The notes under the pieces were generated by a model that searched no databases, was not told where the DNA came from, and saw only the letters and a program-made list of their open reading frames with translations. A program made the translations under genes and the position numbers. From Holophagaceae bacterium (GTDB taxonomy: Bacteria; Acidobacteriota; Holophagae; Holophagales; Holophagaceae): a DNA stretch of 64,000 nucleotides. The stretch spans positions 1 through 64,000 of the forward strand of contig WRHW01000006.1 of the NCBI GenBank assembly GCA_009783055.1. Direction: 5' to 3'. Position 1 is the first letter of the stretch; the number at the start of each line of letters is the position of its first letter. Shown in pieces: positions 594 through 52,955 of this stretch.

Positions 594-1016
594 ATGCCAA
601 TGTCTAAAGATGACCATTTCAATAGCTGGCTGGAAATTGCCCAATCAGACCTAAAAGTCGCTGGAACACTGCTCAAAAACAAACACTGGATATACTCGGC
701 TTTTATGTGCCAGCAGGCTATCGAAAAACTAGTCAAAGGCTTGTATCTGCTATATTTGGATGATGAAATCCCAAAATCCCACAATATTGTCTCCTTGGCA
801 AAAGCATTTGAAGAAAAACTCGACCAGCCGATACCCCAAAACACACTGATGTTATTTGCAACACTTTCAAGTTGTTATTTAAACAACCGTTACCCTACCT
901 ATAAGCATGAAATCTACAAGAAAATTAAAGAAAAAGATGCCGCAATGATATACTCACAGTCGAAGGAGACATTCAAATGGCTATTGACATTGAAACCATC
1001 CATCAAACAGCAATAA
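594..1016 (+). CDS. HEPN-domain protein (toxin half of a HEPN/MNT pair)
   Basis: A predicted all-helical protein of about 140 residues with the layout of the HEPN family. It has an N-terminal helix (DHFNSWLEIAQSDLKVA), then a helix with MCQQAIEKLVKGLYL typical of HEPN proteins, and a C-terminal NNRYPTYKH giving the R-x5-H pair that in active HEPN RNases forms the catalytic site. The start at 594 (or 600) is preferred over 528 because the earlier codons do not match the family. Its 3' end overlaps the nucleotidyltransferase gene by 40 bp, so the two are probably co-translated. In characterised pairs the HEPN protein is an RNase toxin and the MNT partner neutralises it by AMPylation. Activity here is inferred. 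Confidence 0.8.
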   Translation: MPMSKDDHFNSWLEIAQSDLKVAGTLLKNKHWIYSAFMCQQAIEKLVKGLYLLYLDDEIPKSHNIVSLAKAFEEKLDQPIPQNTLMLFATLSSCYLNNRYPTYKHEIYKKIKEKDAAMIYSQSKETFKWLLTLKPSIKQQ

Positions 1017-1297
1017 GCTACGCCAAAAAAGTTAGTCAGACAATGCCAGTTGACAAAGCGGTCATCTTCGGGTCATACGCCAAAGGCAACCCATCTAGAA
1101 CTAGTGACGTAGACATCTGTTTTTTTTTAAAGGACTACAAGGGCAAAAAACAATTAGATATCCTCACAGAACTCATACTGCTAACCCAGGACTACAAAGG
1201 GATATATTTTGAACCCTTGGTCTTTGAGACCTCTGAGCTTGACAACAACAACCCATTTGTTAAAGAGATCATAAAAACCGGCAAAAATCTCCTGTAG
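977..1297 (+). CDS. MNT-type minimal nucleotidyltransferase (antitoxin half)
   Basis: A 106-residue protein with the minimal nucleotidyltransferase signature: FGSYAKG at about residues 31-37 followed by SDVDICFF, supplying the metal-binding aspartates. AAGGAG lies 8 nt before the ATG. It overlaps the 3' end of the HEPN gene, the usual HEPN/MNT arrangement. Its C-terminal half (FEPLVFETSEL, NPFVKEI) matches the second MNT gene in this window at 30244-30708, so the two are paralogues. Comparing them exposes an in-frame insertion in the second copy. This copy appears intact. Confidence 0.85.
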   Translation: MAIDIETIHQTAISYAKKVSQTMPVDKAVIFGSYAKGNPSRTSDVDICFFLKDYKGKKQLDILTELILLTQDYKGIYFEPLVFETSELDNNNPFVKEIIKTGKNLL

Positions 1298-2437: not shown

Positions 2438-2657
2438 TGACTTCACGTCTCACTTCTTCGCGAGAAAAAGTTTGCAATCGTCCAGCTTTGTATTCTGCAG
2501 ATGCTTGGCGGATTTCCTCTGGAGTTGACGCACGACAATCTTCATCCAGGCACGATTTGATAACTGAAGTGAGGGCCGCCTGAAAGGTTTTGTCCTCGCA
2601 TATTTGTATTGCTAGAGCCTCGGCAGTGATGGGTTGCATTGTCTCTGCTGTAACCAT
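2421..2657 (-). CDS. probable antitoxin of the YoeB-type pair
   Basis: A 78-residue acidic protein immediately upstream of, and overlapping, the YoeB-like gene, the standard antitoxin position. GGAG lies 8 nt before ATG 2657. The C-terminal tail (EYKAGRLQTFSREEVRREV) resembles the toxin-binding tails of Phd/YefM-type antitoxins. The N-terminal part (ITAEALAIQICEDKTFQAAL) does not look like the usual YefM DNA-binding fold and I do not recognise it. Function is inferred from position and tail. It may now be an orphan because its toxin gene is interrupted. Confidence 0.65.
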   Translation of the reverse strand: MVTAETMQPITAEALAIQICEDKTFQAALTSVIKSCLDEDCRASTPEEIRQASAEYKAGRLQTFSREEVRREVNALAN

Positions 2658-3055
2658 GAAGAAACTCCAATAACAGTATGTATTAAGTGTACTGCATAGC
2701 CGAACAGATTGGACACGCGGAAGTCATCGTATTCGCTTATATCGTGGATGTTTTTGATGTCTTGGATTTCAAAAGTTGCCCCATCGTCGGCATCCAGTGA
2801 GATGATTTCGCCAAGGATGACTTTGAGGCCATCCTGAGTGATAGACAGGCCTTTTGCCGTCGCGTCCAAATCCTTTGTCGTGCGCCTGTCGATGCCAACC
2901 ATTGAAGCAATCAGGAAGCCCCCTTTAAGGATCAGGTTATTGCGGTAATGCGATATTGATACCCGTTCAACCAATCGCTCCATCATGTAAGTCTGCAAAA
3001 GTACATTTGGGGGAGTCCCAGTCTGCTTTGACTTGTTTTTGATCCAGTCCTTCAT
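2612..3055 (-). pseudogene. truncated AbiEii-family nucleotidyltransferase toxin
   Basis: Residues from MKDWIKNKSK match AbiEii/nucleotidyltransferase toxins: ERLVERVSISHYRNNLILKG, GGFLIASMVG, RRTTKDLDATAKG and DDGATFEIQDI. The glycine pair and the DLD motif of the active site are present. Resemblance ends at YDDFRV near 2714, after which the frame runs about 30 codons of unrelated sequence and into the next gene. The C-terminal half is missing and no AbiEi antitoxin is nearby. The ATG at 3055 lies inside the end of repeat element A1, and upstream codons are element sequence. AbiE systems act in phage abortive infection; this copy is most likely dead. Confidence 0.75.
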
Positions 3056-3525
3056 ACCAAGTTGCACCCAAACGGGAGCAACTTGGTATGACGGCAATGC
3101 GAAAGCAGTGCCCGCAGTAGGAAGGTGAAGAAAACAAGATACCAGCAAGCGTGTCCGAAATAACAAGTTTCCAAAAATGCTTGGCGTGGCAGTCTCGCGT
3201 ATCCGAAGGATACCGAGAAATTTTTGATTATGAAGGCTGTTATGCCGAAAAACTTGAAAGCGAGAAAGAAGACTGGCCATGCCTGAATGGCCGGCGTGGG
3301 AGCCTCGGATATCCGAGCATAGCGAAGGATTCCGAGAGATTACGGGCTTTGCTCGTGTTTGCAAAAAATTCTCTCGGTATCCACTTGCCTGCAAGTGGAT
3401 ACACGAGGCTTCCACGCTGACTTTTCCTGCATTTTGTCCTTTCAAATCGCTGTTTATTTGGTTGCTTACGTCACGTTCATTATGACGTTTCGCGTTTAAT
3501 CCCGATTAAACGCAACCTAGTATTA
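3054..3525. repeat. element A1, long composite multi-hairpin repeat
   Basis: The left end is the 36-bp palindrome ATACCAAGTTGC...GCAACTTGGTAT (3054-3089), followed by the GAAA-tetraloop hairpin (3093-3112). The right end is the perfect inverted repeat GCGTTTAATC/GATTAAACGC followed by GCAACCTAGTATTA, which matches the revcomp of the left arm with two changes. The middle is about 320 bp longer than in copy A3 and holds further inverted repeats (for example GTATCCACTTG/CAAGTGGATAC), suggesting a nested insertion. The left end contains the start codon of the AbiEii remnant and the right end gives waaA its TAA. Confidence 0.8.
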
Positions 3526-15029: not shown

Positions 15030-15065
15030 ATACCAAGTTGCACCCAAACGGGAGCAACTTGGTAT
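15030..15065. repeat. element A2, solo palindrome
   Basis: A 36-bp palindrome with arms ATACCAAGTTGC / GCAACTTGGTAT, identical to the left end of element A1. It lies 53 bp upstream of clpS and lacks the rest of the element. Confidence 0.85.
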
Positions 15066-16144: not shown

Positions 16145-16230
16145 TATACCTCTTCCTATTGCTAATTTGAGGGATGATCTATGTAAGGCCGCACAATGCA
16201 AGGCTTTTCATCTGAAAGCTGATAACTGAA

Positions 16231-16365
16231 ACTAGTGCCATGTAACGCTTTAGATGCTTGCTTAACGGCGTAGCAAGTCCGCCTTGCAAGCATCTAGCGG
16301 TCGTGATTTGCGAGCAAATCCCGACCCTAGTGCAGTGTAACATTTAAGTGTTACACTGCACTAGT
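16231..16365. repeat. element B1, triple-hairpin repeat
   Basis: The left end ACTAGTGCCATGTAACGCT is a near inverted repeat of the right end AGTGTTACACTGCACTAGT. From left to right it holds three hairpins. The first is AGATGCTTGC...GCAAGCATCT around the core GGCG..CGCC. The second is GATTTGC/GCAAATC inside GGTCG/CGACC. The third is the palindrome AGTGCAGTGTAAC/GTTACACTGCACT. It is about 94 percent identical to B2 and B3 by eye. The bases just after it (TTA) are the lgt stop codon. Confidence 0.88.
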
Positions 16366-18314: not shown

Positions 18315-19994
18315 ATGGCAAAGCAGGAAGAGCCTACAATCATCTACTCCATGATGAGAGTTTCAAAAATCTATAACAATAAGCCTGTCATCAAAGACAT
18401 CAGCCTTGGATACTACTATGGCGCAAAGATAGGTGTATTAGGTCTAAATGGGGCTGGCAAGTCCACAGTTCTGCGGATCATGGCTGGTGTAGATAAAGAC
18501 TTTAATGGCGATGCAGTGTTAAGCAAAGGCTACTCCACAGGCATGTTAGAGCAGGAACCACTATTAGACGAGTCAAAAACCGTGAGAGAAATTGTGGAGG
18601 AAGGGGCCGCCGAACAGGCAAGCTGGTTGAGGGAATATAACGAGATAAGCGACAGATTTGCAGAGCCTGACGCTGATTATGATGATCTATTGGCAAAACA
18701 GGGTGAATTGCAGGAGAAAATTGACGCGGCAGATTGCTGGGATTTAGATTCACGCTTAGAACAGGCGATGGATGCTCTGCGATGCCCCGACCCCGATACT
18801 CCTATAAAGATATTGTCCGGCGGAGAGCGTAGGCGGGTAGCACTTTGTAAGCTCCTCATTCAAAAACCAGATATATTATTGCTGGATGAACCAACAAATC
18901 ACCTAGACGCTGAAACTGTTGCATGGCTGGAGAAGCACTTACAGGAATATAGCGGTACAGTAATAGCTGTGACCCATGATAGATATTTTTTGGATCATGT
19001 TGCAGAGTGGATTCTCGAACTAGATAGGGGTGAAGGAATCCCTTGGAAGGGTAATTATTCAAGTTGGTTAGAGCAAAAGAAAAATCGGCTGTCTCTCGAA
19101 GAAAAACAAGATGACAAAAAACAGAAAACGCTTGAGCGCGAGTTAGAGTGGATTCGCATGTCCCCAAAGGGTCAGCACTCCAAGAGCAAGGCAAGGATCG
19201 CCAATTATGAAAAACTTGCCAGTATTGATGCAAAAGAGCGTGAAACTCAGCTAGAAATATATATCCCAAGTGGCCCCCGTCTTGGAGATGTCGTAGTCGA
19301 TTTTAATGAAGTCTCCAAGTCTTTTGGCGACAAGTCCCTGTTTGAAAAATTGTCCTTTCAGGTGCCAAGGGCTGGCATTTTAGGTGTGATAGGAGCAAAT
19401 GGCGCGGGTAAGACCACCCTGCTTCGCCTGATAACCGGTCAGGAAAAGCCTGATGGAGGCAGTATCAAAATTGGTGAAACAGTAAAGATGGCTTATGTAG
19501 ATCAACTGCGTTCTGGCCTAAACATGGATAAAAGCGTCTTTGAAGTTGTAAGTGGTGGCTACGAAATAATCAATCTGGGAGGCAGGGAAATCAATATCAG
19601 AGGTTGGCTAAGTCGCTTTGGATTTCGCGGTGACGACCAGCAAAAAAAAGTTAAGGAATTGAGCGGTGGTCAACAAAATCGCCTAAATCTGGCACTTACA
19701 CTAAAAAGTGAATCAAACCTGTTGTTCTTTGACGAACCCACAAACGACCTAGACGTAAACACCATGAGGGCACTAGAAGAGGCCATAGATGGTTTTGCCG
19801 GAAGTGCTGTGATAGTGAGCCATGACAGATGGTTCTTGGATCGCCTAGCCACCCATATACTAGCATTCGAGGGCGATTCAAGGGTTGAATACTATGATGG
19901 AAACTATACAGAATATGAACAATACAGAAAGGACGTACTGGGTCTCAAACCCTTTGATCCACACCGGATCAAGTACCGCAAGTTGACGCGGTGA
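18315..19994 (+). CDS. ettA: ABC-F protein EttA, energy-dependent translational throttle
   Basis: A 559-residue soluble ABC-F ATPase with two nucleotide-binding domains and no membrane segments. Domain one has GLNGAGKSTVLR, ILSGGERRRVALC and LLLDEPTNHLDAETV. The linker (LEEKQDDKKQKTLERELEW) holds the charged arm that reaches the ribosomal E site. Domain two has GANGAGKTTLLR, ELSGGQQNRLNLA and FFDEPTNDLDVNTM. Opening, length and the C-terminal FDPHRIKYRKL match EttA, which gates early translation according to the ATP/ADP ratio. GGAG precedes the ATG. Confidence 0.94.
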   Translation: MAKQEEPTIIYSMMRVSKIYNNKPVIKDISLGYYYGAKIGVLGLNGAGKSTVLRIMAGVDKDFNGDAVLSKGYSTGMLEQEPLLDESKTVREIVEEGAAEQASWLREYNEISDRFAEPDADYDDLLAKQGELQEKIDAADCWDLDSRLEQAMDALRCPDPDTPIKILSGGERRRVALCKLLIQKPDILLLDEPTNHLDAETVAWLEKHLQEYSGTVIAVTHDRYFLDHVAEWILELDRGEGIPWKGNYSSWLEQKKNRLSLEEKQDDKKQKTLERELEWIRMSPKGQHSKSKARIANYEKLASIDAKERETQLEIYIPSGPRLGDVVVDFNEVSKSFGDKSLFEKLSFQVPRAGILGVIGANGAGKTTLLRLITGQEKPDGGSIKIGETVKMAYVDQLRSGLNMDKSVFEVVSGGYEIINLGGREINIRGWLSRFGFRGDDQQKKVKELSGGQQNRLNLALTLKSESNLLFFDEPTNDLDVNTMRALEEAIDGFAGSAVIVSHDRWFLDRLATHILAFEGDSRVEYYDGNYTEYEQYRKDVLGLKPFDPHRIKYRKLTR

Positions 19995-20015
19995 TGCTTG
20001 ACAGTGTCATCAGTA

Positions 20016-20150
20016 CCCTAGTGCAGTGTAACACTTAAATGTTACACTGCACTAGGGTCGGGATTTGCTCGCAAATCACGACCGCTAGATGCTTGCAAGG
20101 CGGACTTGCTACGCCGTTAAGCAAGCATCTAAAGCGTTACATGATACTAG
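20016..20150. repeat. element B2, triple-hairpin repeat (inverted relative to B1)
   Basis: Reverse-oriented copy of B1 with the same three hairpins and terminal CTAG. The palindrome has arms AGTGCAGTGTAAC / GTTACACTGCACT. The second hairpin is GGTCGGGATTTGC/GCAAATCACGACC and the third GATGCTTGC/GCAAGCATC around GGCGGACTTGCTACGCC. Its right-hand CTAG contains the TAG stop of the PHP gene, and it lies 21 bp after the ettA stop, so it fills a convergent intergenic space. Confidence 0.88.
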
Positions 20151-21307
20151 CTTCGCCCCAATGTTATTTCTAGTGGGCGGTTTAGCCCTGCTATCCAATT
20201 TGATACTGTTAATTTTGTCATGCCACTCTGATCAATTACAACTTGTCCTCTGGCAGGCAGTTCCCATTTTTTTCCATTGACTTGTAATGTGCATGGAATA
20301 TCGCTTTTATTAATCAACTCCAGACCAGCTTGTTTTGTAGTCTGCGATATACATGCAGTAAATAATTTCTGGAGCCACTCATTACTACCAAAGACTAGGC
20401 CAGCCGCAAATCCAATTGTACGTCTCGCAAGAAATGCTTCCCTGATTGAATTTAGAGACCGTTCTTTAGCCAAAACTAGTGTCATAGGTCTCAGATGATT
20501 TTGGCTACCATATTGATCCCATTCCGAAACGTGAATGTCGCTATTGGCAATTAGTGCAAGGTTCATGTCGTTACACCACTGAGAAACGATGGGAAAATAG
20601 TCTGAACCATTAAATACTTCTATACCATGCAAATGTCCGCTTTTATAGACATCTTCATGCTCTTTCATAAAGCGCATAGGATCAGTCGCCTTTAGGTCGG
20701 GAAAATTAGGATGGTTCCAGTGAACAAAGCCACCTTGATCGGTAGCTATAGCAAGCATTTTTTTCCAGTCTGTTACAGCAGAGGCAATAGCATTTGCATC
20801 TTTAATAAATAGAGCGTTGAAATGTCCAGGTGGCATTTTCTTGGTAATTTCTGTACCACGAACGAGAATCAGATTGTGCTTTTCAGCCTCTGGCAGGGCA
20901 ATGTTGTAGGCCATGTGGTGGTCATCGTTTTTATCCAACAACTTGATGGCATTGCCACCAAAATAGGGGCGGTATTCAATATGGTCAGTGATTGCAATAG
21001 CGTCTAGACCGTTATCTACGGCTTCTTTTACACGGTCTTTGGGCATAATTACCCCATCCGAAAAAACCGTATGGATATGAAAATCACCTTTTAAGACGCG
21101 GTACTCTCCCACGTCTGGTATGAGAATTTTTCGGGGTGCAGGTTTAGTCCGCAGTATTTGACGAGTTGGAATGGCAAATAAGCCATCATTGGCTTGCTCA
21201 GAGAGGGGCCGATCAATAGATGTCCGTCCGAGGTCAAATGTAACCGGCGTTGTAGTTGCAACCCCCATCACAGCCAATTGCTTCAAAAAGTCGCGGCGAT
21301 CTAACAT
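20147..21307 (-). CDS. PHP-domain metallohydrolase with a twin-arginine signal
   Basis: The protein starts with MLDRRDFLKQLAVMGVATTT, a twin-arginine (RRDFLK) export signal. The body is a PHP domain: DFHIHTVFSDGV (first metal histidines), IAITDHIEYRP, RGTEITKKMPPGHFN, FVHWNHPNF and a late IANSDIHVSE. PHP proteins are metal-dependent phosphoesterases or hydrolases; the substrate is unknown here. A C-terminal part of about 70 residues (LQVNGKKWELPARGQ) looks like a small beta domain. ATG 21307 is preferred over 21313 because of the distance to AGGGGG. The TAG stop is the edge of element B2. Confidence 0.8.
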   Translation of the reverse strand: MLDRRDFLKQLAVMGVATTTPVTFDLGRTSIDRPLSEQANDGLFAIPTRQILRTKPAPRKILIPDVGEYRVLKGDFHIHTVFSDGVIMPKDRVKEAVDNGLDAIAITDHIEYRPYFGGNAIKLLDKNDDHHMAYNIALPEAEKHNLILVRGTEITKKMPPGHFNALFIKDANAIASAVTDWKKMLAIATDQGGFVHWNHPNFPDLKATDPMRFMKEHEDVYKSGHLHGIEVFNGSDYFPIVSQWCNDMNLALIANSDIHVSEWDQYGSQNHLRPMTLVLAKERSLNSIREAFLARRTIGFAAGLVFGSNEWLQKLFTACISQTTKQAGLELINKSDIPCTLQVNGKKWELPARGQVVIDQSGMTKLTVSNWIAGLNRPLEITLGRS

Positions 21308-29518: not shown

Positions 29519-29758
29519 CTATTCGCATTTACTGTTGTCATATAGCTCTGATGGGTCTAAGTCTTGGCCATGAGGCCACTCTACGCTTATTCCCGATGGC
29601 TTAACTTGTCTAAAGTAATTGGGGCAATTTAGCTCGCCGTACCAAGACCCGCGAATATAGGGCCTGACATTAAATATTTTGGATTCTCCTGTGTCAAAGC
29701 TGAGTTTCAGCATATAATCAGGCATTGGCTCTGCGTGGAGGATTTTGTGAAAGGTCAT
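29519..29758 (-). CDS. DUF2442-family small protein
   Basis: A 79-residue protein with the DUF2442 pattern: an N-terminal strand pair (LKLSFDTGESKIFNVRPYI), then GSWYGELNCPNYFRQVKPSG and the closing VEWPHGQDLDPSELYDNS. AAGGA precedes the ATG. The family often sits beside DUF4160 proteins in toxin-antitoxin-like pairs; no DUF4160 gene is seen here. It lies 16 bp upstream of mod and probably shares its transcript. Confidence 0.8.
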   Translation of the reverse strand: MTFHKILHAEPMPDYMLKLSFDTGESKIFNVRPYIRGSWYGELNCPNYFRQVKPSGISVEWPHGQDLDPSELYDNSKCE

Positions 29759-29811
29759 AATAAATCCTTATTTTAAGGGGTCTATTTTAAAGCATTGTTC
29801 ACCACTAGAAA

Positions 29812-30045
29812 TCAGTCGCCAATGGATGGGTCATTAATCATTTGCTCTACTTCCTCCATTGCCTCCAGAGTTTCGGCGTTGGCCACGTTGAGGGAAATTT
29901 CAAATGGGATTTTTCCAAGCCTGACAGACTGGCTTACAAAGACGTTGATGGCAGTAGATAGGCTCATTCCCAAACTATTAAATAGCTCTTCGCCACTTTT
30001 CTTTAAGTTGTCGTCTATCTGGACAAGCAACTCTGTCTGCGCCAT
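29812..30045 (-). CDS. RelB/DinJ-family antitoxin-like protein
   Basis: A 77-residue protein with the ribbon-helix-helix opening of RelB/DinJ antitoxins (TELLVQIDDNLKKSGEELFN, SLGMSLSTAINVFVSQSVRL, GKIPFEI) and an acidic tail (MEEVEQMINDPSIGD). AGGGG precedes the ATG. Such proteins bind their own promoter and block a RelE-type toxin. No RelE-type gene is adjacent; the next gene is DUF2442. It may be an orphan or work with DUF2442. Confidence 0.85.
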   Translation of the reverse strand: MAQTELLVQIDDNLKKSGEELFNSLGMSLSTAINVFVSQSVRLGKIPFEISLNVANAETLEAMEEVEQMINDPSIGD

Positions 30046-30085
30046 GACTCACCCCTTGCTTGATTATATAGTAGTTTCACAGTTG

Positions 30086-30195
30086 ATATAGCGGTTCAAC
30101 TTTTTGTAGTTGAACTGCTATATGCCAGGATTTGCTTGCAAATCATGGCCGTTTGTTGTTCATAGGCGGGCTTGGCTCGCCGTTGAGTGAACAAC
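30086..30195. repeat. element C, triple-hairpin repeat structurally matching family B
   Basis: Hairpin 1 is ATATAGCGGTTCAAC / GTTGAACTGCTATAT (30086-30123). Hairpin 2 is GCCA-GATTTGC/GCAAATC-TGGC (30124-30149). Hairpin 3 is GTTGTTCA/TGAACAAC around GGCGGGCTTGGCTCGCCGTT (30155-30195). The inner cores equal those of family B while the outer stems differ but still pair. It lies between the divergent RelB-like and MNT genes, and AAATAGCTATAG follows it, echoing the left end. Confidence 0.8.
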
Positions 30196-30243
30196 AAAAA
30201 CGTAAATAGCTATAGTATACTCTCATACACAAGAGGTATTTAC

Positions 30244-30708
30244 ATGGCTGTTGACTTTGAAGCCGTAAACCAAGTTTGCCGACAATATGCCGATGATGTA
30301 CGTCGCGTTTTGCCCGTTGACAAGGTTATGCTGTTTGGCTCTTACGCCAAGGGCACGGCTGACGAAAAGAGCGACATTGACATTTGTTTTTTCCTCGACA
30401 ACTATGGCGACAAGGGACGGTTTGAAATCATGGTCGATTTGTTATACCAAGTTGCACCCATACGGGAGCAACTTGGTATAACGGCAATGCGAAAGCAGTG
30501 CCCGCAAGTTTTTGAAAATACGGGCTTTGCTCGTGTTTGCAAAAACTTTTGCGCTTCGCGTTTAATCCCGATTAAACGCAACCTAGTATTAGGACTTTCG
30601 CATCGCTTCAAGGATGCTTTCTTTGAACCATTGGTCTTTGAAACGTCTGAACTCGAAAATGACAACCCCTTTGTAAAAGAGATTCTCCGCACAGGTAGGG
30701 AAATATAG
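30244..30708 (+). CDS. MNT-type nucleotidyltransferase carrying an in-frame repeat element
   Basis: A 154-residue frame. Residues 1-67 match the MNT at 977-1297 (LFGSYAKGTADEKSDIDIC, including the active-site aspartates). Residues 68-116 (YQVAPIREQLGI...KRNLVL) have no counterpart and are the translation of element A3. Homology resumes at SHRFKDAFFEPLVFETSELE and runs to the end. Without the insert the protein would be 105 residues, the same as its paralogue. AAGAGG precedes ATG 30244. No HEPN partner is adjacent. The active-site half is intact, so the protein may fold around the insert, or the gene may be decaying with its frame intact by chance. Confidence 0.85.
   Translation: MAVDFEAVNQVCRQYADDVRRVLPVDKVMLFGSYAKGTADEKSDIDICFFLDNYGDKGRFEIMVDLLYQVAPIREQLGITAMRKQCPQVFENTGFARVCKNFCASRLIPIKRNLVLGLSHRFKDAFFEPLVFETSELENDNPFVKEILRTGREI
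30445..30591. repeat. element A3, 147-bp four-hairpin repeat inserted in frame
   Basis: Hairpin 1 is the palindrome TTATACCAAGTTGC / GCAACTTGGTATAA (30442-30481). Hairpin 2 is GGCAATGC-GAAA-GCAGTGCC (30483-30502), with a GNRA-type loop. Hairpin 3 is AAGTTTTTG/CAAAAACTT (30506-30548), enclosing AAATACGGGC/GCTCGTGTTT with G-T wobble pairs. Hairpin 4 is GCGTTTAATC/GATTAAACGC (30558-30579). It ends CCTAGTATTA. The triplet TTA occurs at both edges and could be a target duplication. Removing 147 bp restores an uninterrupted MNT gene. Confidence 0.88.
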
Positions 30709-30722
30709 CAACTTAACTTTTT

Positions 30723-30758
30723 ATACCAAGTTGCACCCAACCGGGAGCAACTTAGTAT
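30723..30758. repeat. element A4, solo palindrome
   Basis: A 36-bp palindrome with arms ATACCAAGTTGC / GCAACTTAGTAT (one arm base changed). Its right arm contains the TAA stop codon of the res gene. It separates the convergent MNT and res genes. Confidence 0.85.
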
Positions 30759-35267: not shown

Positions 35268-37184
35268 TTAGTTCCGCCCAAAGAGTCCACTGAATAGACC
35301 CCTCTTGGCCTGTCCATCTTGCAATTGTGGAACTGTTGTTATTTCTTCGGGGGGGCGTTCTTGACGCAATCTGTCAAAAATTGGCCTCAGTGCTGGCACT
35401 TTGGGAGCCTGTATCCAGTTTTCACTAAATTGGCGCGCTACCATGTGATGTTCCTGTAGCCTTCCATCCTCTGCCATTGCTGACAATTCTTCAATGCTTA
35501 GTTCCTCAATTAAGGTGTCATCATCCATCCGGACTTTTAGCTTGGCCGCCTCGTTGCTGGCCACGCTGTCAGATACATCGGGTGGAACAGATACAGTGGC
35601 TTCCTTAGGTGTAACTTTCGGAATAATTGCAGGAGGAGGGGGAGGGGGAGGGGGAGGAGGAGGAGGAGGAGGGGGCGGAACTACCGCCTGTTCATCTGCC
35701 TCTTGCGATACTTTTGCTGGAGGTGCCATCTCTTTTTGTGGGGCAGGGGCAGACGGTTTAGGCATGGAAACACTGGAGGCCATCGCCGCAAGTATATCCC
35801 TTGGCGATAGCACAACCGTGCCTCCCGCCTTTGCCATAGCCTCGTTGTGGGCTACCTTGGAGTCATCGTCATTTGCAACAACAGCAGTAGCGGTATCCTC
35901 AGACTCCATGGTTTGAATAGGTTCAACAGGTTCAAGAGATTCAACAGATTCAACTGGTACTTCAGGTATTTCTGTTTCAATTGATTCTAAAGAATCGTCA
36001 TGCTCCGGGACATCATCATGGAATGGAGTATGTTCAGCCTCTACGCCGGATTCTTCAATTGCCATTGCTATATCATCACTAGCAAACTCAAATTCCTCGT
36101 GTGCGAGGGGTTCTTCCGCTGAAAGAGACGTGGAGTAATCTAGGGTTTCGGCAGTTGATACTGGTTTTTCGTCTGGAGTTGGTAGGTCAGGCTCGTCCTC
36201 GACACTTAGTTGAATTTTTACTGCCGGAGGTGCTTCTCCCGCTTGCAATAATAGAGAGTAATCTAGGGTTTCGGCAGTTGATACCGGTTTTTCGTCTGGG
36301 GTTGATGGGGCGGGCTCGTCCTCGGCACTTAGTTGAATTTTTACTGCCGGGGGTGCTTCTTCCGCTTGCAATAATAGAGAGTAATCTAGGGTTTCGGCAG
36401 TTGATACCGGTTTTTCGTCTGGAGTTGATGGGTCAGGCTCGTCCTCGACATTTAGTTGAATTTTTACTGCCGGGGGTGCTTCTTCTGCTTGCAATAATAG
36501 AGAGTAATCTAGGGTTTCGGCAGTTGATACTGGTTTTTCGTCTGGAGTTGATAGGTCGGGCTCGTCCTCTACCTTCAGTGATACGTCTATGTCTTGCGGT
36601 GCTTCCACTGATAAGGAAATAGATATATCTTCTAGTTCTGCTGGCGGAGGTTCTGGCACTGGGTCTGCTGTAGCTTGGGTAGCCTCTATGGGATCGTCAG
36701 CAGGCGTCGCTATCGGTTCTTCGTCATCGAGTTGAATTTCTTCTGCGGTATATTCTTCCTGAACCTCTACTTCATTATTGGGAACAATGTCTTCTATTGG
36801 AGAAAAATCAAAGTCTTTTAGGGCTTCTAGAGCCAGATCGTCAACATGATCTTCTTGAGCAGAGGCAACTATTTCTTCCGGCTCAATGACTTGTGGTTTC
36901 TGTACTGGCTGTAGGGGTTGTAATGGTTGCACTGGTGGCTGAATTGGTATATCAGAGGGCGTGTTGTTGGCTCCTAGTGCAGTTAAAACCTCGGCAGACT
37001 GGAGATTGCTTGTATCAGTGGTGGTTTCTGGGCTAATTGTAAAAAACCTTGTGACATCGCCCTCTATGTCAAACTCTGCTTGACATCGATAGCAACGCGC
37101 ACGTTTAATGCCTGGGTGCAACTTCCCCAAACGCAGGTAGTACTTTGTTGAACAATCAGGACATTTGATAGTCTGTTCCACCAT
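35268..37184 (-). CDS. MJ0042-type zinc-finger protein with tandem repeats, polyproline and a GYF-like C-terminus
   Basis: A protein of about 638 residues. Residues 1-38 are an MJ0042-type zinc ribbon: IKCPDCSTKYYL and ARCYRCQAEFDI give two CxxC pairs. A long acidic region follows, with four copies of a 41-residue repeat containing KPVSTAETLDYSLLLQAEE. Then come a run of about 17 prolines and a C-terminal LIEELSIEELSAMAEDGRLQ, HHMVARQFSENWIQAPKVPAL, resembling GYF_2/DUF4339 domains. ATG 37184 is preferred over 37193. It follows pilC by 24 bp on the same strand, so a role in type IV pilus assembly or regulation is a fair guess. No transmembrane segment is seen. Confidence 0.75.
   Translation of the reverse strand: MVEQTIKCPDCSTKYYLRLGKLHPGIKRARCYRCQAEFDIEGDVTRFFTISPETTTDTSNLQSAEVLTALGANNTPSDIPIQPPVQPLQPLQPVQKPQVIEPEEIVASAQEDHVDDLALEALKDFDFSPIEDIVPNNEVEVQEEYTAEEIQLDDEEPIATPADDPIEATQATADPVPEPPPAELEDISISLSVEAPQDIDVSLKVEDEPDLSTPDEKPVSTAETLDYSLLLQAEEAPPAVKIQLNVEDEPDPSTPDEKPVSTAETLDYSLLLQAEEAPPAVKIQLSAEDEPAPSTPDEKPVSTAETLDYSLLLQAGEAPPAVKIQLSVEDEPDLPTPDEKPVSTAETLDYSTSLSAEEPLAHEEFEFASDDIAMAIEESGVEAEHTPFHDDVPEHDDSLESIETEIPEVPVESVESLEPVEPIQTMESEDTATAVVANDDDSKVAHNEAMAKAGGTVVLSPRDILAAMASSVSMPKPSAPAPQKEMAPPAKVSQEADEQAVVPPPPPPPPPPPPPPPPAIIPKVTPKEATVSVPPDVSDSVASNEAAKLKVRMDDDTLIEELSIEELSAMAEDGRLQEHHMVARQFSENWIQAPKVPALRPIFDRLRQERPPEEITTVPQLQDGQAKRGLFSGLFGRN
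35630..35678. repeat. polyproline-coding, G-rich simple repeat
   Basis: About 49 bp of GGAGGAGGGGG-type triplets on the plus strand, encoding about 17 prolines on the minus strand inside the zinc-finger gene. It is a strong purine/pyrimidine mirror tract able in principle to form G-quadruplex or triplex DNA and prone to slippage by multiples of three. Confidence 0.85.
36134..36570. repeat. 123-bp tandem repeat in the zinc-finger gene
   Basis: The word AGTAATCTAGGGTTTCGGCA occurs at 36134, 36257, 36380 and 36503, an exact 123-bp period that keeps frame (41 codons). Copies differ by only a few bases, implying recent expansion or gene conversion. Confidence 0.92.
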
Positions 37185-50405: not shown

Positions 50406-50432
50406 TCCACCCCTCCCAAAAAAATGTATAGA

Positions 50433-50567
50433 ACTAGTACCACGTAACGCTTTAGATGCTTGCTTAACGGCGTAGCAAGTCCGCCTTGCAAGCATCTAGC
50501 GGTCGTGATTTGCGGGCAAATCCCGACCCTAGTGTAGTGTAACATTTAAGTGTTACACTGCACTAGG
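50433..50567. repeat. element B3, triple-hairpin repeat
   Basis: Same orientation and near-identical sequence to B1. Left end ACTAGTACCACGTAACGCT, right palindrome AGTGTAGTGTAAC / GTTACACTGCACT. It fills the space between the start of ftcD and the end of the OmpA lipoprotein gene, whose TAG stop (50571-50569) begins 2 bp beyond the terminal CACTAG. Confidence 0.88.
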
Positions 50568-52919: not shown

Positions 52920-52955
52920 ATACCAAGTTGCACCCAACCGGGAGCAACTTGGTAT
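52920..52955. repeat. element A5, solo palindrome
   Basis: A 36-bp palindrome ATACCAAGTTGC / GCAACTTGGTAT, loop ACCCAACCGGGA, between the start of the kinase gene and the end of the M28 peptidase gene. Confidence 0.85.

Follow-up and report, generated by a model that had tools for sequence, protein, structure and literature searches.

A four-hairpin MITE in the reading frame of a nucleotidyltransferase gene of a Holophagaceae bacterium

In the stretch of 64,000 nucleotides analysed here (the window; contig WRHW01000006.1 of Holophagaceae bacterium assembly GCA_009783055.1), an MNT-type nucleotidyltransferase gene at 30244-30708 on the forward strand contains 49 codons made of a structured repeat. 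How did such a repeat come to lie within a protein frame, and is the element built for doing so? A first-pass annotation had proposed an independent family with the same in-frame ability as the Rickettsia palindromic elements (RPEs). RPEs are palindromic mobile repeats of about 150 bp that have an open phase and in some cases lie within protein genes, in frame (PMC10969869, PMC2229807), and the fusion protein from the Rickettsia guanylate kinase gene that carries one is translated and active (PMC2229807, PMC10969869). In-frame insertion is thus established in Rickettsia, but this is not the sole precedent: the 107-bp Correia/NEMIS element, ERIC, YPAL and RU-3 form occasional in-frame fusions in Neisseria and enterobacteria (PMC2229807). 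The locus is very probably best read as a non-autonomous MITE that was inserted in frame recently, was tolerated through chance and weak constraint, and adds a peptide without selected function.

The inserted element and its host gene

The open frame encodes a predicted protein of 154 aa (about 105 aa without the insert) of the nucleotidyltransferase superfamily (Pfam NTP_transf_2, E=4.4e-11; Polbeta, E=1e-10). The 49-residue block is absent from all three aligned homologues, which are encoded elsewhere in the same genome (G000:C58:590-910; 77% identity), in a same-genus genome (G001:C4; 72%) and at 977-1297 (+) in the window itself (51%). All three match the 30244 protein in length on both sides of the insertion point and run through it without a gap, leaving a clean empty site, and the block matches repeat copies outside genes. 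The first-pass annotation had delimited this extra block exactly, as 147 bp at 30445-30591 within an open frame, with TTA at both edges. It consists of a 144-bp core (30445-30588, +), supported by genome copies, fold and covariation with relatives, plus one extra TTA; the core starts TACCAAGTTGC, ends CCTAGTA and is flanked by the left and right copies of a TTA target duplication (30442-30444 and 30589-30591, both +).

The insert folds as DNA into four hairpins (−47.6 kcal/mol; z = −10.2 against shuffles), bearing out the four that had been recognised in the letters. Hairpin 1 (30445-30478) joins the left terminal repeat TACCAAGTTGC to an inner inverted copy, and the fold places hairpin 2 at 30483-30502, hairpin 3, a long interrupted stem, at 30503-30553, and hairpin 4 at 30558-30579 (all +). 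The right terminal repeat (30578-30588, −) reads TACTAGGTTGC on the minus strand, so that the terminal inverted repeats TACCAAGTTGC and TACTAGGTTGC are imperfect, about 11 bp long and identical at 9 of 11 positions. The 144-bp element encodes no transposase; its longest phase has 48 codons, and the fusion frames had no family match over the element. Across the window no Rfam family reached its gathering score, and viral contigs had no match to the hairpin 3 pattern.

Judging from the open frame, the 49-residue insert would be translated, and its reading on paper includes the predicted peptides EQLGITAMR and QCPQVFENTGFAR. Alignment to the solved nucleotidyltransferase 2rff puts the insertion after the helix that follows the catalytic D-x-D, ahead of the next strand, in what is likely a surface loop, a location the first-pass annotation had raised. 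An AlphaFold model of the fusion protein was unusable (pLDDT 36).

The genomic setting of the gene differs from that of its homologues. HEPN genes or their remnants lie immediately upstream of the MNT homologues on C58, on G001:C4 and at 977, the last being preceded by a HEPN gene at 528-1016. The HEPN frames upstream of the intact C58 and G001 homologues (L088 130-593; L089 700-1090) are broken, by a frameshift on C58 and by an in-frame stop in G001. No HEPN remnant was found in the three forward frames of 29701-30243, so that the HEPN-MNT pairing seen at 977 is missing at 30244, where the upstream region holds hairpins and a RelB-like gene on the opposite strand. Constraint on an antitoxin-type MNT that has no toxin partner is plausibly weak.

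Also upstream of the gene, at 30087-30122, is a palindrome ATAGCGGTTCAACT...AGTTGAACTGCTAT. The same motif adjoins elements in G001 and in a second same-genus genome, G002, and probably represents one more repeat family.

A repeat family and its occurrence in genes

A survey of loci and stretches of the draft genome (2.7 Mb, 141 contigs) yielded about 40 element copies with fixed ends. Many contigs break off within the element, which is what a recent, assembly-breaking repeat should produce, and with the draft broken at many copies part of the copy contexts is unseen. Full short copies with both flanks are nearly all exactly 144 bp long. Two such copies are 100% identical to the MNT insert, most being 94-99% identical, and the MNT insertion is therefore young. 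Longer variants of 254 and 468 bp have both ends in common with the short form. The first-pass annotation had called the insert a copy of an element seen elsewhere in the window; the exact 144-bp form does occur elsewhere in the genome, but the window copy, a 468-bp long variant at 3055-3522 (+) with TCA and TTA flanks, shares only ends and inner blocks with it. The genome contains the motif TNATACYAASTTGC 200 times, a reversed control not at all. The first 35 bp of the element, a palindrome of the terminal repeat and its inverse, are also found alone in the window as solo hairpins 1 (15031-15065, 30724-30758 and 52921-52955, all +), the second of them 15 bp past the MNT stop codon.

The element's four hairpins recur in a 153-bp version present in G002 and in the Holophagales MAG JAITCJ, the nearest named carrier; this version is about 73-78% alike to the present element where alignable. 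In a covariation analysis of 13 sequences, 97% of cells were paired and 11 pairs had a compensatory change on both sides, compared with 33-49% paired cells and one to three doubly compensated pairs when the partners were slid as a control. The 153-bp version also has TGA and TAG stops in the phase that is open in the present element. Compensatory changes together with these stops indicate that base pairing, not peptide, has been kept: selection has preserved the hairpins and not an encoded sequence.

Three further features of the window may be recorded here. An AbiEii-like nucleotidyltransferase gene (2612-3442, −) abuts the 468-bp element with its 5' end. There is an ATG at the TCA edge of the element, and the start of this gene may have been supplied or replaced by the insertion. 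Another repeat family, with copies of about 135 bp (16230-16364, 19988-20154 and 50432-50567; 97-98% alike), ends in a long palindrome CCTAGTGCAGTGTAACA...TGTTACACTGCACTAGG. At 36010-36605 there are four tandem copies at 123-bp spacing (41 codons), 61-94% alike.

Since core plus duplication come to 147 bp, or 49 codons, the short form preserves the frame by its length wherever it inserts. Of the element's six phases two lack a stop, and when 5000 sequences of matching composition were simulated, 857 (about 17%) had at least two open phases; the open phase is within chance. To place copies in or out of genes we used a codon-usage score trained on the long genes of the window. A search for in-gene copies, as the first-pass annotation had suggested, brought up a second in-frame case, on contig C53, but only these two among 18 two-flank copies show a coding frame to left and right in a single phase. 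The flanks of the MNT copy score 0.30 and 0.31, which is normal, and those of the C53 copy, in a 162-aa ORF (L090:1064-1552), score 0.18 and 0.38. This ORF has GGAG, a plausible ribosome site, before its ATG and is followed by the next gene 23 bp on; it has no homologue in 61 family genomes, so that an empty site for its insertion cannot be shown. The remaining two-flank copies look intergenic, and 20 one-flank copies gave no convincing coding frame entering the element. Among copies with readable flanks there is thus no sign of a preference for genes.

Several other frames had been candidates for fusions. A 215-aa ORF on C115, considered as a third case, was rejected: its coding score is not positive across the insertion site, and other repeats match its C-terminal part. 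At the copy next to folK on contig C4 a long open frame leads into that gene, but the element is closely followed by a GGGAGG-TTG start and a fusion is probably not made. On C38 and C23 the fusion frame lacks a coding signal across the insertion site. Relatedly, a gene for a repeat-containing lipoprotein-like protein on C64 (L029 472-1500) is closed by the TAA of the duplication at the element's right edge and was possibly truncated by the element.

These counts bear on the idea that the element, like RPEs, is adapted to genes, with length and open phase retained as a means of spreading within proteins in the form of a tolerated peptide. Consistent with this, 144+3 and 153+3 are both divisible by three, the MNT and C53 fusions use the same sense phase of the element, and that phase is open in every copy whose phase was examined. 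On the other hand, only 2 of 18 two-flank copies and convincingly none of the 20 one-flank copies lie in genes, stops close this phase in the relative's version, the length of the 254-bp variant plus 3 is not divisible by three, and two open phases are not rare by chance. We consider adaptation to genes unlikely. What had been put forward as an independent family with a special in-frame ability thus holds as a new family, with an empty site and a second case on C53, but the ability itself is not borne out by the share of 2 in 18, the chance-level phase and the stops in the relative.

Target duplication and the search for a partner transposase

The triplets at the two edges of the element are identical in 24 of 30 copies (13 of 17 in the genome itself and 11 of 13 of the relative's version). 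With right-hand triplets shuffled, the mean was 10.7 matches in 30, and none of 20,000 shuffles reached 24. TTA, TCA, TAA, TGA and CAA were each seen paired with themselves at element edges, and the element makes a 3-bp target duplication at TNA. This duplication, together with the imperfect 11-bp inverted repeats, identifies the element as a MITE: we found many copies with fixed ends, terminal inverted repeats, a target duplication and no transposase gene within the element.

Duplication of TNA is in keeping with the IS1031 subgroup of the IS5 family, whose MITEs resemble the present element in duplicating 3 bp at TNA; they differ from it in that an IS5-type transposase with the element's ends was not found in the genome. 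To judge from the duplication, a DDE transposase probably moved the MITE in trans; its gene would lie elsewhere or have been lost since. None of the nine DDE_Tnp_1 genes of the genome is an autonomous partner with the same ends, and the draft has no match to Y1_Tnp, DDE_Tnp_1_2, DUF4096 or DDE_Tnp_4. The partner may have been lost, may come from another family or may lie in the missing part of the draft.

That an enzyme recognising single-stranded hairpins, of IS200/IS605 or RAYT type, moves the element instead of a DDE enzyme would suit an element that consists of hairpins. It would also suit the inner foot of hairpin 1, where 19 of 29 copies (10.3 expected) carry the reverse complement of their left target triplet; the inner triplets are TAA, TGA and TTA (copies including that in the window, 30445-30482). 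The clear 3-bp duplications speak against such an enzyme, as does the failure to find a Y1 transposase in the genome, and the IS200/IS605 and RAYT class is not known to make target duplications; we regard this route as very unlikely. The triplet match may simply be an effect of subfamily and target preference, the TAACGG subfamily being found at TTA in 11 of 11 copies. That hairpin 1 base-pairs with the target to choose the site while 3 bp are still duplicated would likewise predict such a match but seems to us marginally less credible again, and if true it would mix two styles of transposition.

Probable tolerance of the insertion and relation to known elements

In the reading that we prefer, a MITE of this bacterial genus, probably mobilised in trans by a DDE transposase now lost or encoded elsewhere, would have inserted at TNA with duplication of 3 bp. 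Core and duplication, at 147 bp and with a stop-free sense phase, would have left the MNT frame intact and placed 49 residues between helix and strand. The recent insertion would then have been tolerated through chance and through weak constraint on an orphan MNT without a HEPN toxin, and the added 49-residue peptide would have no selected function. The dN/dS of the MNT flanks against the homologues (0.15-0.28) is that of ordinary long-term purifying selection; with the insert identical to intergenic copies, this figure does not bear on the time since the insertion. Ten of 11 lineage-specific residue changes fall between residues 58 and 81, around the insertion point, and could reflect local selection; the same stretch is variable in all homologues. 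Least probable of all is that the 49 residues are a functional addition, e.g., a new interaction surface replacing the HEPN contact, for although frame and codon use of both flanks are intact and residue changes cluster near the insertion, the HEPN partner gene is missing and 100% identity to copies outside genes leaves no selection visible at the peptide level.

Like RPEs, the element is a palindromic mobile repeat with an open phase and in-frame copies in protein genes. It differs from them, in a comparison by published description, in host phylum, in its in-gene share (2 of 18, against the reported 'nearly half' for RPEs), in its clear TNA duplication (marked '?' for RPEs in PMC2229807) and in an open phase that is not conserved in the relative's version. 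Correia/NEMIS, ERIC, YPAL and RU-3 are likewise small, structured and mostly intergenic, mostly with terminal inverted repeats, but have other ends and another hairpin layout. The solo 35-bp intergenic hairpins resemble REPs; unlike REP and BIME, the full element has target duplications, and a RAYT (Y1) transposase was not found.

A limited literature search found no description of this MITE family. The in-frame habit is already known in bacteria; what appears to be new is the family, an independent one. The MITE family reported here, from a Holophagales-type genome, is apparently undescribed; its four hairpins are kept by compensatory change in same-genus relatives, and it supplies two concrete instances of a mobile hairpin element with a predicted reading as protein. 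For in-frame insertion a length divisible by three and one open phase are enough, without any special adaptation, and the in-frame cases that survive may be those that sit in weakly constrained genes.
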